From Nitrospira sp. (GTDB taxonomy: Bacteria > Nitrospirota > Nitrospiria > Nitrospirales > Nitrospiraceae): 64,000 bases of DNA. The position numbers were made by a program, and so were the translations under genes. The stretch spans positions 186,001-250,000 of the forward strand of contig JAFEBL010000007.1 of the NCBI GenBank assembly GCA_018242665.1, given 5' to 3'. The notes beneath the pieces were generated by a model. It had not been told where the DNA came from. It saw only the letters and a list, made by a program, of their open reading frames with translations, and searched no databases. Below, piece by piece: positions 52,599 through 60,904 of the stretch (its first letter is position 1; each line of letters starts with the position of its first letter).

Positions 52599-53528
52599 AT
52601 GGCGCGTATACGAAGTTTGGCGGTATGGGTGTTGGGCGCGGCACTGTTCGGGATGAGCGGATCCCTCTATGCGCTCGATGTCGCCGATGTCGTCAGGGAA
52701 TGGACGCCGGAAGGAAAGAAGCTGGCGATGGAGCGTGCCAAGTTGCCGGCGCATGACGAGATGATCCGTATCCCGGCCGGTGAATTCCTCATGGGAAGCG
52801 AGAAGAGGGTCGACAAGAACTCCTACCTGGCCGAGTTCCCTCAGCGGAAGGTGTATCTGGATGCCTATGATATCGACAAGTACGAAGTCACCACCATCCA
52901 GTTTTTGAAATATGTACTCGCCCACAACCTCGCGCCCTTGATCGATTGGCAGTACGACGGCGGAAATTTCCAGGAGACCATGGTCAGCCATCCGGTGATG
53001 CACGTCTCTTGGTTCGATGCGGAGGCGTACTGCAAATGGGCGGGGAAACGGCTGCCGACGGAGGCGGAGTGGGAAAAAGCCGCTCGCGGCGAAGATGGAC
53101 GCATCTATCCCTGGGGCAACCAAATGGCGGGGCTCTCTCGCGCGAATTTCGGTCGGACTGGGCTGTCGGGGCCGGTGCGCGATCGGCCGGAACGGCTGCT
53201 GCTCTATCCGCCGATTATCTCAGTGGATAAGTATGACAATGCGATGAGCCCATACGGACTCTTTCAGATGGCGGGAAATGTGGCTGAATGGGTCGCGGAT
53301 TGGTACGACCCGAAATACTATGCCGGTGCGCCGGACAAAAATCCAAAAGGCCCTGAAACCGGCAGTCAACGGAGCTTTCGCGGCGGTGGTTGGATCGACA
53401 GCACGCCCAGTGTTCGTGTCGCACAGCGCAACGGGACGGATCCCAACACCAAGATGAACTGGATGGGATTCCGCTGTGCGCGCGATGCCAACGAGGGGAC
53501 GGCGGCCCCAACCATCGAGGCGAAATAA
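52599..53528 (+). CDS. Secreted SUMF1-domain protein (FGE-like, no catalytic Cys)
   Basis: A 309-residue exported protein of the formylglycine-generating-enzyme (FGE-sulfatase) fold. After the signal peptide: MIRIPAGEFLMGSE, YLDAYDIDKYEVTTIQFLKY, HVSWFDAEAYCKWAGKRLPTEAEWEKAARG, PYGLFQMAGNVAEWVADWYDP, RGGGWIDSTPS and MGFRCARD. The catalytic pair of real FGE (Cys-x4-Cys after the RGGSW strand) is absent: that loop reads WIDSTPSVRVAQ. It is probably a binding or structural protein rather than an enzyme on sulfatases. AAAGGAG precedes the ATG. Confidence 0.88.
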   Translation: MARIRSLAVWVLGAALFGMSGSLYALDVADVVREWTPEGKKLAMERAKLPAHDEMIRIPAGEFLMGSEKRVDKNSYLAEFPQRKVYLDAYDIDKYEVTTIQFLKYVLAHNLAPLIDWQYDGGNFQETMVSHPVMHVSWFDAEAYCKWAGKRLPTEAEWEKAARGEDGRIYPWGNQMAGLSRANFGRTGLSGPVRDRPERLLLYPPIISVDKYDNAMSPYGLFQMAGNVAEWVADWYDPKYYAGAPDKNPKGPETGSQRSFRGGGWIDSTPSVRVAQRNGTDPNTKMNWMGFRCARDANEGTAAPTIEAK

Positions 53529-54443: not shown

Positions 54444-55283
54444 TTACTGAGCATCCGCCGCGCAGCGGAATCCCGTCGATTCATTTCTCATGGTCGGATC
54501 GCTATCGACTCGAGTGAAGATGCGAACGGTCGGGGTCTCATTTTGCCAGCCGGCCCCGCGGATAACCTTCTTCGTGCCGCTCTCGGGTCCGGGAGGATTC
54601 TTGGCGGGACTCTTTTCATAATATTTCCCGTCGTACCAGTCGTTGACCCATTCCCACACATTGCCCGCCATGTCATACACGCCGTAGGGACTTTTGCCTT
54701 TTTCGTAACTGCCTACCGGCATCAAAGTCTTTTCCCCGACCCACTTCTGATTGAAGTTCAGATGTCCGTTGGTGGGCTCGACATTGCCCCATGGGAAGCG
54801 CCAGTCGTTGTTGCCCTTGGCGGCCTTTTCCCATTCGGCTTCTCGCGGCAACCGCCGGCCCGCCCATGTGCAGTAGGCATCGGCATCGGCCCAGTCCACA
54901 TTGATCACCGGACGGTCGGCGAGCGAGGCGGGAATGCCGACCCCTTCCCAGAGATTCCGGGTGGGATTTTTTGGATTTTGCGGCACGCGGTGACTGGTGG
55001 CCTTCACAAACTCCAAATACCGCCCATTGGTGATCTCATACTTGTCGATATAAAAGGGGTCGATCTCGATCACATGGCGGGGATATTCATCGCGTCCGCC
55101 GTCACGGTCGCCCGCCGGAACCCCCATCGGGTAGGAGCCTGCTGGGATGAGCACGAGCGGCGCCCCGTCTTTTCCCGTGATTTCTTTGGGCAGAGCGGCC
55201 TGCTCTGCGGCGAATGCGTGAGATCCCGTGCCGTTGAATCCGATGAGCGCCACCACCAATGCGAGGACGGATCGTGCCAACAT
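54444..55283 (-). CDS. Secreted SUMF1-domain protein 2 (no catalytic Cys)
   Basis: A 279-residue exported protein: signal peptide ending GSHAFAAE, then LVLIPAGSYPMGVPAGDRDGGRDEYPRHVIEIDPFYIDKYEITNGRYLEF, INVDWADADAYCTWAGRRLPREAEWEKAAKG, YGVYDMAGNVWEWVNDWYD and TGFRCAAD, the full FGE-sulfatase fold. The loop after RGAGW reads QNETPTVRI with no Cys-x4-Cys, so it should not make formylglycine. Start at 55283 is supported by AGGAGT; the long frame upstream is unsupported. It precedes the HemD-like gene on the same strand with a 20-base gap. Confidence 0.88.
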   Translation of the reverse strand: MLARSVLALVVALIGFNGTGSHAFAAEQAALPKEITGKDGAPLVLIPAGSYPMGVPAGDRDGGRDEYPRHVIEIDPFYIDKYEITNGRYLEFVKATSHRVPQNPKNPTRNLWEGVGIPASLADRPVINVDWADADAYCTWAGRRLPREAEWEKAAKGNNDWRFPWGNVEPTNGHLNFNQKWVGEKTLMPVGSYEKGKSPYGVYDMAGNVWEWVNDWYDGKYYEKSPAKNPPGPESGTKKVIRGAGWQNETPTVRIFTRVDSDPTMRNESTGFRCAADAQ

Positions 55284-55407
55284 AGCGTCAAACTCCTTTG
55301 GTTCGTAACACACGATGCCCGATCGTACCACAGCCGCGGAGTTTTCAAACATGACTTGCCTGGGCAAAATGATGGTTCTGTCTGCGGTCGCTGCTGGCGG
55401 TTGAGGA

Positions 55408-55437
55408 TTGACGCGATGGTAGGCCCGCACCTACTAT
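55408..55437 (+). promoter_or_regulatory. Candidate promoter of the VOC gene
   Basis: TTGACG (55408-55413), 18 bases, TACTAT (55432-55437); predicted start some 14 bases before the VOC ATG, just ahead of its CAGGAGA ribosome-binding site. Confidence 0.35.
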
Positions 55438-55907: not shown

Positions 55908-57527
55908 ATGGGACTTTGGGACGCATGGCCGCGCGATCAGTATGTGGGGCTAGCCCCGTGGGTCTGGGTCCAGCTTGAAAGCAACCAGTCGCCCGGACCC
56001 TTTCCGTTTGTGGGCGGCGTGGCACCGGAGGTGGTGGCCAGTCTCCACGAAGCCCATAGCCTGTTTCTGGCCTGCATCGAAACGGCCATCAGCGATGTCT
56101 TTTCCCGGCGTGCCGTCCTCGATGATCCGCAGACCCGTGTGCGGATGGAAGATGCCTATGCCGAATTGGTCAATTCCCGGCAGCAATTGAGTCAACACAT
56201 CACGGCCCGACGCCAACCCGACGGGCAGTTCCACTGGTCGCATCCCTTCGATGCCACAAAATCCGCCACGGTCGTGAATACCGGGCTGCGTATCTTCAAC
56301 GCCGTGAAACGGCAGGCGATCCCTGTCCCGTTCGAGCGTCCGATGGGTCCGGTGGTGGGCAAACTGCTGGGTATGCTGGATGGCACGCAGCAAGCCGGGG
56401 CGATCAGGACCATTGTGACGACGGCCGGGCGGGAGGGCGAGCGCCTGCTCACCAAACTGATGGAACTGTTTCTCCAATACGAGTGCCTCACGCCCACGAG
56501 CCAGGCCACAGTCCGCCATCATTGGTTGGCGCAGATGAACGATCGGGACACGGTGCACCTCGGCCATGCCGCGCTACTCTATCGGCAACGCGACCAGTTT
56601 CTGCTTTTCGATCCCTGGTTGTTGCCCTGGTTTGCAGAATCGAATGTGCCGAGCCTGTGGGTGTCCTTGCTCCCGAAGCCGGCGGCGATTTTTCTGACGC
56701 ATGATCATGACGACCATGTGGACCCTCGAACCTTGCTGCATGTGCCGAAGGATGTACCCATCGTCATCCCTAGTCGGCGGAATCGGAAGAAATTCTATTA
56801 CGACTATCTGCCGCTCCTCCGGGAATTGGGATTCAGCCATATTATCGAACTCGCCCATGGCGAGGCCTGGAACTTCGACGGGGGCGCCGTCGTCTCAGTG
56901 CCGTTTTATGGCGAGGACCCCTGCGACCTGGAGATGCCGAGGAATTGTTATCTCGTGACCGACCGGGGGCAAAATGTCCTGGTGCATGCCGACAGCGGCC
57001 CGACGAACAGCGGCCGATCGGCTATTCAGGAAGGGGTCATTCAGCAGTTGGTCCAGAAATATGGACCCCTGTCCCTAGTCCTGGCTTCTCAACAGCAATT
57101 ACAGGAGATTCGCAGCTACGCCGCCCATGCGCCGCTGTCGCATCCGGGGCAATGGCTCGACGTGGGGGAGAATGGATACCTCACCAACCGATATCTGGAT
57201 GAATTGTGCGCAACGGCCCAGGCGAGACTCTTTGTGTCCTATGCGACAGGCGGCGCCGATTGGTATCCCGATCATCTGTCCTTCATGTTCAGCCAGCGCA
57301 ATCCGGCTCGTACGGCTCTGCTCACTGCGCATTGGGAACCCCCGGACAAGTTGGAACATCTTCTGAAACAGCACGATTGCCGCTATCATCGTGCTCACGC
57401 ATTGGATGTGTTTCGCGCGGGCGCCGACGGGTCAGTAGAGGTCCGCTCTATGGCCGAGGCCTTATCGCCCATGCCGCTCTACCGGCTCGATCATGGCGAA
57501 CCGGCATTCATGAAGCGGGCGAGGTAA
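55908..57527 (+). CDS. Metallo-beta-lactamase-fold hydrolase with long N-terminal domain
   Basis: A 539-residue protein. The C-terminal 300 residues form a metallo-beta-lactamase fold: [19 protein letters not shown] (His265, His267, Asp269, His270), LVHADSGPT and further metal-site loops. The N-terminal 215 residues ([49 protein letters not shown]) are helical and unlike the usual RNase Z or UlaG proteins. Substrate unknown. It starts 3 bases after the VOC gene and 22 bases before the UDP-sugar epimerase gene. ATG has only a weak ribosome-binding site, so coupling to the VOC gene is likely. Confidence 0.82.
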
Positions 57528-57549: not shown

Positions 57550-58572
57550 ATGGGATCTGAGAAAGGAGTCGTACTCGTCACCGGCGCTGCGGGATTCATC
57601 GGGTCTCATGTGGCCAGGCGGTTGCTGGATCGCGGGGATTCCGTGCTGGGGCTGGACAATCTGAACGATTATTACGACGTTCGCTTGAAAGAAGCCCGTC
57701 TGGCCCGGCTGCAGACACACCCGCAGTTTCAATTTGTGAAGCTTGATGTGTCGGATCGGCCCGGCATGGCGGCTCTGTTCGAGCAGCAGGGTATTCGACG
57801 CGTCGTGCATCTGGCGGCGCAGGCCGGCGTCCGCTACTCGCTCGTGAATCCCCATGCCTATACGGCGAGTAACGTCGATGGGTTTTTAAATGTGTTGGAA
57901 GGCTGTCGGCATCACAAGGTCGAACACTTGGTCTATGCATCCACCAGTTCGGTCTACGGCGGCCATACGAAAATGCCGTTTTCGGTGCACGACAATGTCG
58001 ACCATCCCGTGTCGCTCTATGCCGCGACGAAGAAGGCCAACGAACTGATGGCGCACTGTTATGCGCATCTGTATCGGTATCCGATTACGGGCTTGCGGTT
58101 CTTCACGGTCTACGGGCCTTGGGGCCGTCCGGACATGGCGCTGTTTTTGTTCACGAAGGCGATTCTCGAAGGTAAACCGATCGATGTCTTCAATCATGGG
58201 AAGATGAAACGAGACTTTACCTACGTGGACGATATCGCCGAAGGCGTGCTGCGTACGCTCGATCGGCCCGCGCAGGTTGATCAAAACTGGTCGAGCGATA
58301 ACCCCGACCCCGGAAGCAGTTCCGCACCGTATCGACTCTACAATATCGGCAACAATCAGCCGGTCGACCTCCTGCGTTTCATCGAGGTGCTTGAGCAGAC
58401 GCTCGGCAAGAAGGCCGAAAAAAATCTTCTGCCGCTCCAGGCCGGCGATGTGCCGGCCACCTATGCCGACGTCGCAGACTTGATGCGCGACACCGGCTTC
58501 AAGCCGGCCACGTCGATCGAAACCGGCATCGCCAGATTTGTCGAGTGGTATCGGGAGTATTACCACATATAG
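57550..58572 (+). CDS. UDP-glucuronate 4-epimerase-type NAD-dependent epimerase
   Basis: A 340-residue extended short-chain dehydrogenase: [15 protein letters not shown] (Gly-rich NAD loop), [36 protein letters not shown], the STSSVYGG strand, [19 protein letters not shown] with catalytic Tyr-x3-Lys, [18 protein letters not shown] and a C-terminal substrate domain. NLNDYYD and [10 protein letters not shown] are typical of UDP-glucuronate 4-epimerases, making UDP-galacturonate for polysaccharide. A 22-base gap separates it from the previous gene. Confidence 0.9.
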
Positions 58573-58729: not shown

Positions 58730-60904
58730 ATGAATGATCGGCCAGAATGTTCCCGCCGACAGCTGATCAAAGCTCTGGTCGGACTCGGCTTCGTGGTCGT
58801 GGCACGTTCTCCGACTGCTCTCTTTGCGGAGGGATCGGCTGAGTTCAAGGTTGACAGTACGGCTCCGCTGATTCGCGCCCCGAAAGACCCGCACCAATGG
58901 CCATCCTGGAAGGACGGACTCCAGGAATGGCGGGATCACGCGCGCGCCGCCTTGAGATACGACAACCGGCGCTATCACGACCCAGCCCAGGCCTGGGTGA
59001 CATCCAGCTTCTCCAGTTGCTTTCTCATGCTGTATGACCAGACCTTCTACGATCATCAGTCGGGCCACTATGACGTGGAGTCCTTCCTTCGAAAAGCCGT
59101 GGAGGATTTTGGCGGCTTCGACAACCTGATTCTCTGGCATGCCTATCCGCGAATCGGCACGGATGACCGCAATCAGTTCGACTTTTACCGAGATATGCCA
59201 GGGGGACTTCCCGGCATTCGGGATGTGGTCAGGCGATGCCACCAGCTAGGCGTCAAGGCGCTGGTCGTGTATAAGCCATGGGATGTGGGAACGAGGCGCG
59301 AGACGGTATCGGACGTGGAGGCTTTGGCCCTATTGGTAAGGGAGACCGAGGCGGATGGCGTCTATCTCGATACGATGCTGGAGGCTCCTGAACCTCTCCG
59401 CGCTGCCCTCGACGGAGTCGGTCCCGGACTGGTCATAGAAGGTGAGGGCGTGTTGCCGCTCGAGCATATCCACGACCATCACATGTCGTGGGCGCAATAT
59501 TTTGAGGACAGCGAGACCCCGGGGATTCTCAGAAATAAATGGCTTGAACGCCGCCACATGATGCACCAAACCGCTCGATGGAGGCGCGACCGTTCAGCTC
59601 AACTTCACACGGCGTGGATGAATGGCAGCGGTATGGTGGTCTGGGAGATCGTCTTCGGTGCATGGGTGGGATGGTCCGTCCGGGACCGGGCGACCTTGCG
59701 GGCGATGCTTCCGGTGCAACGGCACTTTGCCGCCTTGTTTTCCGGAGAAGGCTGGACGCCGCTCGTTCAGACGGAGGTTCCGCATGTCTATGCCTCGCTC
59801 TGGGAAGAGGGCGGGATCAGGCTCTGGACAGTGGTGAACCGTCACGATCAGCCGGTTTCAGGGCTGTTGCTGAAGATTCCGGCGATGGACGCTGTCGTTT
59901 ATTTTGATGTGATGACGGGCGAACAGCTGCATCCACGAGTCGAAAAGGGAGAAGCATGGATCTCTGGCACCTTGGCATCGCGGGGAATCGGCGGCTTTGT
60001 GACCGGCGATTCGTCCGCGTTCGGGGCCGATTTTGAGCAACTCATGGCCATGCAGCGAAGCGGCCGGTTGAACGTGCCCCGGTCCGGGGATTTTCCTCAG
60101 CGCCCTGTGGTGCATCTGAGTGCGCCGTTGGGTCTTGATCCTCAGGTTGAACCGAAGCGCTCAGAGATGGCCGACATTCCATCCGCGAGTTTCACCATGC
60201 GAGTACAACTCAGGACGCGAGAATGCGGCTTTTACGAGAATGAACTGGAGCAGGATGAACTCTACGGGAACTTCCACAAGCCGCGAATCTTCGAACGCCG
60301 CGTGACGTTGGCGGCCTATGCCATCGACATCACTCCTGTCACCAATGCGCAGTACGCAGAATTTCTTCGGGCGACGGGCTATAGCCCCCGCGTTCAGGAG
60401 CACTTTCTGAAACATTGGATCGGTGGGGCGGTGCCTGCCGGGAAAGAAGACCATCCGGTCGTCTACGTCTGTTTGGACGATGCCCGTGCCTATGCACGAT
60501 GGGCAGGGAAAACCATCCCAAGCGAAGAGCAATGGCAATATGCGGCACAAGGGCCGGAAGGGCTCACCTATCCGTGGGGTCACGTGATGGAGCCGGGCCG
60601 GTGCAATGGTGGCGAATCGGGCGGGACCACGAGTGTGCAGGCATTTCCTGCCGGGCGTTCTCCATTCGGGTGTTATGACATGTGCGGCAATGTCTGGGAA
60701 TGGACGGAGAGTGAACGGACTGATGGCCGAACGCGGTTCTGCATGATCCGAGGCGGGTCCTACTACCGCGCCCAGGGGTCCCATTGGTACATGGACGGCG
60801 GCCCTCAGTCTGCCGATTTTGCCGCGAAGTTTCTCCTGTTGTGGCCTGGCTTGGATCGCTGCGCCACGATTGGCTTTCGGTGCGTGGCCAATCGACGCGA
60901 ATGA
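58730..60904 (+). CDS. Tat-exported glycosidase-like barrel fused to a SUMF1 domain
   Basis: A 724-residue fusion. It begins with a canonical Tat signal, SRRQLIK followed by ALVGLGFVVVA. Residues 40-470 resemble a TIM-barrel glycoside hydrolase (FDNLILWHAYPRIGTDDRNQFDFY, GVKALVVYKPW, ADGVYLDTML) with a beta-sandwich after it. Residues about 500-720 are an FGE/SUMF1 domain (RVTLAAYAIDITPVTNAQYAEFL, DDARAYARWAGKTIPSEEQWQYAAQG, PFGCYDMCGNVWEWTES, RGGSYYRAQGSHW, TIGFRCVAN). The FGE catalytic Cys pair after RGGSY is missing. It is exported folded, so a cofactor or disulfide-rich product is possible. The next gene upstream makes a sugar nucleotide. Confidence 0.83.
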   Translation: MNDRPECSRRQLIKALVGLGFVVVARSPTALFAEGSAEFKVDSTAPLIRAPKDPHQWPSWKDGLQEWRDHARAALRYDNRRYHDPAQAWVTSSFSSCFLMLYDQTFYDHQSGHYDVESFLRKAVEDFGGFDNLILWHAYPRIGTDDRNQFDFYRDMPGGLPGIRDVVRRCHQLGVKALVVYKPWDVGTRRETVSDVEALALLVRETEADGVYLDTMLEAPEPLRAALDGVGPGLVIEGEGVLPLEHIHDHHMSWAQYFEDSETPGILRNKWLERRHMMHQTARWRRDRSAQLHTAWMNGSGMVVWEIVFGAWVGWSVRDRATLRAMLPVQRHFAALFSGEGWTPLVQTEVPHVYASLWEEGGIRLWTVVNRHDQPVSGLLLKIPAMDAVVYFDVMTGEQLHPRVEKGEAWISGTLASRGIGGFVTGDSSAFGADFEQLMAMQRSGRLNVPRSGDFPQRPVVHLSAPLGLDPQVEPKRSEMADIPSASFTMRVQLRTRECGFYENELEQDELYGNFHKPRIFERRVTLAAYAIDITPVTNAQYAEFLRATGYSPRVQEHFLKHWIGGAVPAGKEDHPVVYVCLDDARAYARWAGKTIPSEEQWQYAAQGPEGLTYPWGHVMEPGRCNGGESGGTTSVQAFPAGRSPFGCYDMCGNVWEWTESERTDGRTRFCMIRGGSYYRAQGSHWYMDGGPQSADFAAKFLLLWPGLDRCATIGFRCVANRRE

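Follow-up and report, generated by a model that had tools for sequence, protein, structure and literature searches.

An exported protein found in Nitrospira and in other phyla combines a GH13-like barrel with an FGE-fold domain and probably represents an uncharacterised family of sugar-cleaving enzymes

Introduction

Enzymes of glycoside hydrolase family GH13, such as neopullulanase and maltogenic amylase, combine a (beta/alpha)8 barrel with a C-terminal beta-sandwich (domain C). Their nucleophile is an Asp at the end of strand 4, with an Arg two residues before it; the acid/base is a Glu at the end of strand 5, and a further Asp, the transition-state stabiliser, follows strand 7. The FGE fold (PF03781), found in FGE and in the SUMF1-SUMF2 proteins, carries in FGE a pair of copper-binding catalytic cysteines. 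The FGE-like folds of EgtB, OvsA, SenA, and PvdO also take part in catalysis. In PorK, an FGE fold that lacks the cysteines serves as a docking hub (PMC12421860). Literature searches for a fusion of a barrel to an FGE fold, or for an FGE-linked glycosidase, found none.

Here we analyse a gene from a window of 64,000 nucleotides that forms part of a Nitrospira genome contig, and whose product has its closest named relatives in Nitrospira metagenome-assembled genomes. A preliminary description of this DNA had proposed a Tat-exported fusion of a TIM-barrel-like domain, a beta-sandwich, and an FGE-like domain, and had called it a fusion that it did not recognise.

Results

Gene, domain layout, and export signal

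The gene and the parts of its product are located as follows:
58730 to 60904, + strand: complete gene with an ATG start, encoding 724 residues (Tat signal, (beta/alpha)8 barrel, beta-sandwich, FGE-like domain)
58730 to 58837, + strand: twin-arginine signal peptide region, residues 1-36, with SRRQLIK at residues 8-14; seen in the sequence and disordered in the model
58952 to 59749, + strand: (beta/alpha)8 barrel, approximately residues 75-340, with a GH13-like fold and kinship to DUF6259; no Pfam match
59753 to 60007, + strand: beta-sandwich C-terminal to the barrel, residues 342-426, placed as domain C of GH13 and common to DUF6259
60155 to 60892, + strand: FGE/SUMF1-fold domain, approximately residues 476-721, from PF03781 and FGE structure matches; in 54/54 relatives

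An AlphaFold2 model of the 724-residue protein, calculated with 54 sequences as input, has a mean pLDDT of 89.6 and a pTM of 0.90 and contains all three of the proposed folded parts. The N-terminal part, for which a lack of any TIM-barrel similarity would have counted against the proposal, is a confidently predicted (beta/alpha)8 barrel with strands at residues 95-100, 132-136, 176-181, 210-213, 235-239, 252-256, 277-281, and 301-304. A pTM of this size for a 724-residue chain points to a single fixed arrangement of barrel, sandwich, and FGE parts. In a Pfam scan, the sole domain recognised was FGE-sulfatase (PF03781; residues 522-719, E 1e-38), while residues 33-470 gave zero matches down to E 10. 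A Glyco_hydro_30 match (E 0.063) falls within the FGE part and was rejected as noise.

The N terminus, MNDRPECSRRQLIKALVGLGFVVV, carries a twin-arginine motif followed by a hydrophobic stretch, and SRRQLIK satisfies the Tat motif S/T-R-R-x-F/L-L/I-K expected before such a stretch. The canonical Tat signal noted earlier is therefore present, and its twin arginines are retained in 9/9 Nitrospira orthologues checked. Among 57 relatives, however, 25 have no twin-arginine match; several of these have Sec-like starts, and some are incomplete or uncertain in their start. Tat export is thus a trait of Nitrospira and, in part, of a wider set, and with so many relatives outside the motif, the folding before secretion that Tat export had been taken to imply does not seem to be needed across the barrel-FGE family as a whole.

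Fold and relatives of the barrel

GH13 enzymes are the top PDB structure matches of the barrel and beta-sandwich (Foldseek E 3.4e-12). Neopullulanase 1j0j matches the protein with Z 20.5 and rmsd 3.8 over 335 residues (VIA), a GH129 structure matches with Z 18.5 (VIA), and a galactosaminidase follows close behind. As modelled, the barrel folds like a GH13 amylase (Z about 20, ~330 residues), although the fold by itself proves no function. A search of a viral structure library with the model gave weak matches only, and when the barrel sequence was run against the PDB, no true relative came up, the matches being to a designed protein and to an antibody chain.

Profile-profile comparison matches the barrel and beta-sandwich to DUF6259 (PF19773) with P 5e-27 over 367 columns. 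Against a set of GH13 sequences from Nitrospira, whose small size limits the comparison, the score of 43.1 is above chance: 20 column shuffles reached no more than 21.8, and the reversed profile scored 21.1. By these profile scores, the nearest sequence relative of the barrel is the uncharacterised DUF6259, with GH13 a far weaker match; compared directly, the GH13 and DUF6259 profiles match weakly (score 32). GH129 and GH36 both occur among the structural matches, but as sequence relatives they were rejected on noise-level profile scores of 24.7 and 26.6, the GH129 set consisting of two sequences only. No Pfam model matches the barrel region in any of 54 aligned members: PF00128 matches 0/54, and the Pfam model for DUF6259 itself finds no match in members of the barrel-FGE family. 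DUF6259 proteins have a related barrel and beta-sandwich, but those that we found lack an FGE domain and have a different N-terminal domain. Distant half-matches in Planctomycetota (for example L125-L128, L130, L131, and L133) are DUF6259 proteins by Pfam, likewise without FGE domain. Within the literature collection searched, no paper was found that refers to DUF6259.

Candidate catalytic residues

Ten polar residues of the barrel are invariant in 54/54 aligned relatives: D103, D131, D145, D151, D155, D185, D209, D214, E239, and H276. Three of these, together with one near-invariant Glu, are encoded at the following positions:
59282 to 59284, + strand: D185, after strand 3 (in PWD), on the expected active-site face; 54/54
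59369 to 59371, + strand: D214, at the end of strand 4, candidate nucleophile; 54/54, in the GH13 nucleophile column and matching a DUF6259 Asp
59444 to 59446, + strand: E239, at the end of strand 5, candidate acid/base; 54/54, aligned with a DUF6259 Glu
59645 to 59647, + strand: E306, after strand 8; conserved in 52/54, replaced by Asp in the other two

In the profile alignment with GH13, D214 falls on the Asp of the motif GFRLDA. E239 has the expected place at the end of strand 5, but in this alignment, the weaker of the two, it misses the GH13 acid/base by one column. The barrel shares with GH13 the overall fold, the strand 4 Asp, and the strand 2 motif, but its identity to GH13 is ~12% and its GH13 catalytic set, judged from the alignment, is incomplete. 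The Arg position two before the nucleophile is occupied by Y212 in the protein and by Phe in the family consensus (GIFLD), and no invariant Asp follows strand 7, with D287 (44/54) several residues further on. Because that Arg is missing, we do not class the protein as GH13. Catalytic-type acids are nevertheless conserved, contrary to the case, envisaged beforehand as fatal to the proposal, in which they would be absent from all orthologues.

The foremost alternative, which we consider improbable, is that the protein binds or scaffolds glycans without catalysis, as a GH13-like pseudo-enzyme joined to an FGE-fold adhesion module. The FGE chemistry has been lost, cysteine-free FGE folds act as docking hubs elsewhere (PMC12421860), and the structure matches of the barrel found by Foldseek include CD98hc, an inactive protein of GH13 fold. 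Against this stands the invariance of the ten polar residues, both candidate acids among them, across phyla and down to ~32% barrel identity, a degree of conservation beyond what one expects of a decayed enzyme, and D214 and E239 have conserved equivalents in DUF6259.

An FGE fold without the FGE cysteines

The nearest structures of the FGE part are FGE, SUMF2, and CalU17 (Z 23). It has the fold of FGE and SUMF1-SUMF2 but differs from them in being fused behind a barrel and, as the preliminary description had recognised, in having no catalytic cysteine pair:
60749 to 60802, + strand: segment aligned with the two copper-binding cysteines of FGE, residues 674-691, RGGSYYRAQGSHWYMDGG, no Cys

At the position of GGSYMCHRSYCYR in human FGE (C336 and C341), the protein reads GGSYYRAQGSHWY, and the human motif GGSYMCHRSYC, checked against the PDB, corresponds to GGSYYRAQGSHW. 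The pair occurs in none of the aligned relatives. The FGE part is nonetheless maintained, as seen from its own set of invariant residues: R497, N539, E599, S684, D709, and R710 are found in 54/54 relatives, and H562, W563, W686, and K700 in 53/54.

This residue set could also mean that the FGE-fold domain is itself an enzyme of another chemistry, for example another oxidation, and that the barrel only delivers or trims its substrate. The catalytic FGE-like folds of EgtB, OvsA, SenA, and PvdO, to which sequence matches of the protein were seen, would be precedents. We regard such a role as quite unlikely, given that the protein has neither the cysteine pair nor a DinB domain for iron (Pfam finds FGE-sulfatase only). 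It scores 65 bits where the model cut-off is 360 and 64 bits where it is 420, which likewise places it outside the EgtB/OvoA/SenA group. A parallel is offered by PorK and GldK of the type IX secretion system, which are also exported FGE folds without the cysteines and in which the fold provides a binding surface, but which have no barrel and build a secretion ring (PMC12421860). The FGE part may bind a substrate or partner, or shape the active site of the barrel.

FGE-like proteins are numerous in Nitrospira. A search of the genome with the protein finds 15 matches, most via the FGE part, and two more FGE-sulfatase proteins are encoded within ~6 kb, at 52599-53528 (+) and 54444-55430 (-).

Spread of the family

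Far from being a one-off, the fusion is a conserved and widespread family, even if its barrel is, as the preliminary description sensed, named in no library searched. The same domain order, an FGE domain being detected by Pfam in 54/54 aligned members, occurs in at least seven phyla, with members in Nitrospirota, Planctomycetota, Verrucomicrobiota, Acidobacteriota, Bacteroidota, Armatimonadota, Hydrogenedentes, and Myxococcota. A search of genome contigs with the barrel only gave 60 loci, where nearly all open reading frames also encode the FGE domain; those without an FGE match (L062, L071, L074, and part of L082) are cut short by a contig end or masked sequence or are incomplete in another way, judged from length and position. 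In 294 sampled Planctomycetota genomes, we found seven further full-length members in six genomes besides the one already known, all with the FGE domain. The fusion is thus obligate, and its two parts diverge at the same pace (mean identity 56.4% for the barrel and 56.8% for FGE; r 0.83, 1431 pairs), as they should if they work together as a single unit.

Among 295 sampled Nitrospirota genomes, the gene is present in six only, all Nitrospira and including that of the window. Full-length orthologues at 64-77% identity occur in 10/28 congeneric Nitrospira genomes, which, together with the same architecture in many phyla, excludes a chance fusion. In a phylogenetic tree, the Nitrospira members form one clade (100/100) among members from Planctomycetota, Verrucomicrobiota, Acidobacteriota, and Bacteroidota, for which a single acquisition by Nitrospira is the simplest reading.

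Proteins of the Armatimonadota/Hydrogenedentes type (L070, L077-L081, L086, L120, and L121) carry an N-terminal extension of 226-391 residues. The two extensions scanned have no Pfam match, and the set is unlike the N-terminal domain of DUF6259.

Genomic neighbourhoods

Upstream of the gene lies a sugar epimerase gene, which had been taken to point to cell-surface polysaccharide:
57550 to 58572, + strand: NAD-dependent sugar epimerase/dehydratase; a core Nitrospira gene, not specifically linked

Genes recur in Nitrospira in the order metallo-beta-lactamase-fold protein, epimerase, barrel-FGE protein where present, small outer-membrane-like protein, and KefB-type exchanger. The epimerase is found in 28/29 Nitrospira genomes at 87-95% identity, while the barrel-FGE gene is limited to 10/28 congeners, where it occupies one fixed slot, and four non-carriers read in detail show the identical gene order minus this gene. 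With a core epimerase beside a patchily distributed gene, the Nitrospira neighbourhood says little about function, and it contains no glycan locus around the barrel-FGE gene. The proposed pointer to surface polysaccharide does not hold. That the two proteins together make or trim a uronate polysaccharide of the cell itself is very unlikely, since the adjacency on the same strand in 10/10 carriers (by position) is offset by the core status of the epimerase, by flanks that stay intact in the four non-carriers, and by neighbour clusters showing no recurrent epimerase beside the gene in other phyla.

In the same Nitrospira block, the metallo-beta-lactamase-fold protein (55908-57527, +) is conserved, falls below all Pfam cut-offs, and has ~200 N-terminal residues without assignment.

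Loci of Bacteroidota relatives point to glycan breakdown instead of polysaccharide assembly. They contain SusC/SusD together with RhaT, PfkB and FGGY kinases, URO-D, and AraC, and in Bacteroides stercorirosoris (L083) the gene lies beside genes for DUF2961 (GH172), GH26, GH43, and an ADP-ribosylglycohydrolase. In a Dysgonomonadaceae metagenome-assembled genome (L066:6810-10037), GH26, barrel, and FGE parts form a triple fusion, with SusD in the locus.

Discussion

Proposed mechanism and significance

The barrel-FGE protein is probably a member of an uncharacterised family of sugar-cleaving enzymes whose barrel is nameless in the libraries searched. We put at roughly 60% the probability that it is an exported enzyme active on carbohydrates and belongs to an unnamed family, akin to DUF6259 and more remotely to GH13, with a predicted retaining mechanism and an FGE part that serves for binding. 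This reading draws on fold matches led by GH13, the DUF6259 and GH13 profiles, the invariant acids, the glycan loci of relatives, and the obligate FGE part; a search for reported activity of any family member found none. The protein would be exported by Tat in Nitrospira, with some other members of the family taking different routes. Its barrel would then act on a glycosidic bond, by cleavage or transfer with retention of configuration, with D214 as the putative nucleophile, E239 as the putative acid/base, and the invariant D103, D145, and D185 and near-invariant E306 assisting. The FGE fold, which is never absent and is predicted to pack in a single arrangement, would hold the substrate or a partner as a fixed part without performing FGE chemistry.

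Should the protein prove active, it would define an uncharacterised enzyme family that spans at least seven phyla, and DUF6259 would acquire catalytic residues that can be tested. After PorK, this would make a second case of a cysteine-free FGE fold retained for its binding function, in this instance permanently joined to an enzyme. Why an autotrophic nitrite oxidiser should retain an exported enzyme of this kind, probably acquired in a single event, is a puzzle of its ecology.

A lead to the substrate

GH172 enzymes are exo-D-arabinofuranosidases (PMC10115798), and DUF2961 proteins occur not only in the Bacteroides locus but also in a Verrucomicrobiota locus (L047) with an FGGY kinase (assigned by cluster), a fucose-isomerase-like protein, and an MFS transporter. 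These neighbours provide a pentose- or furanose-containing glycan as a lead for the substrate, to which we give a probability of perhaps one in four. Tallied over 86 proteins, without a background set, the neighbours are too diffuse to name a substrate. More speculatively, and at somewhat less than even odds, these proteins could form a new family of glycosidases or transglycosidases with DUF6259 as its sister family. An obligate FGE fold stripped of its oxidase function would then perhaps shape the active site, and the target would be a glycan, possibly containing pentofuranose, that has no known enzyme of this kind.

Loci from Alistipes and Bacteroides also contain a second conserved neighbour family without a Pfam match (L060:2-1555 and L083:5705-7780).
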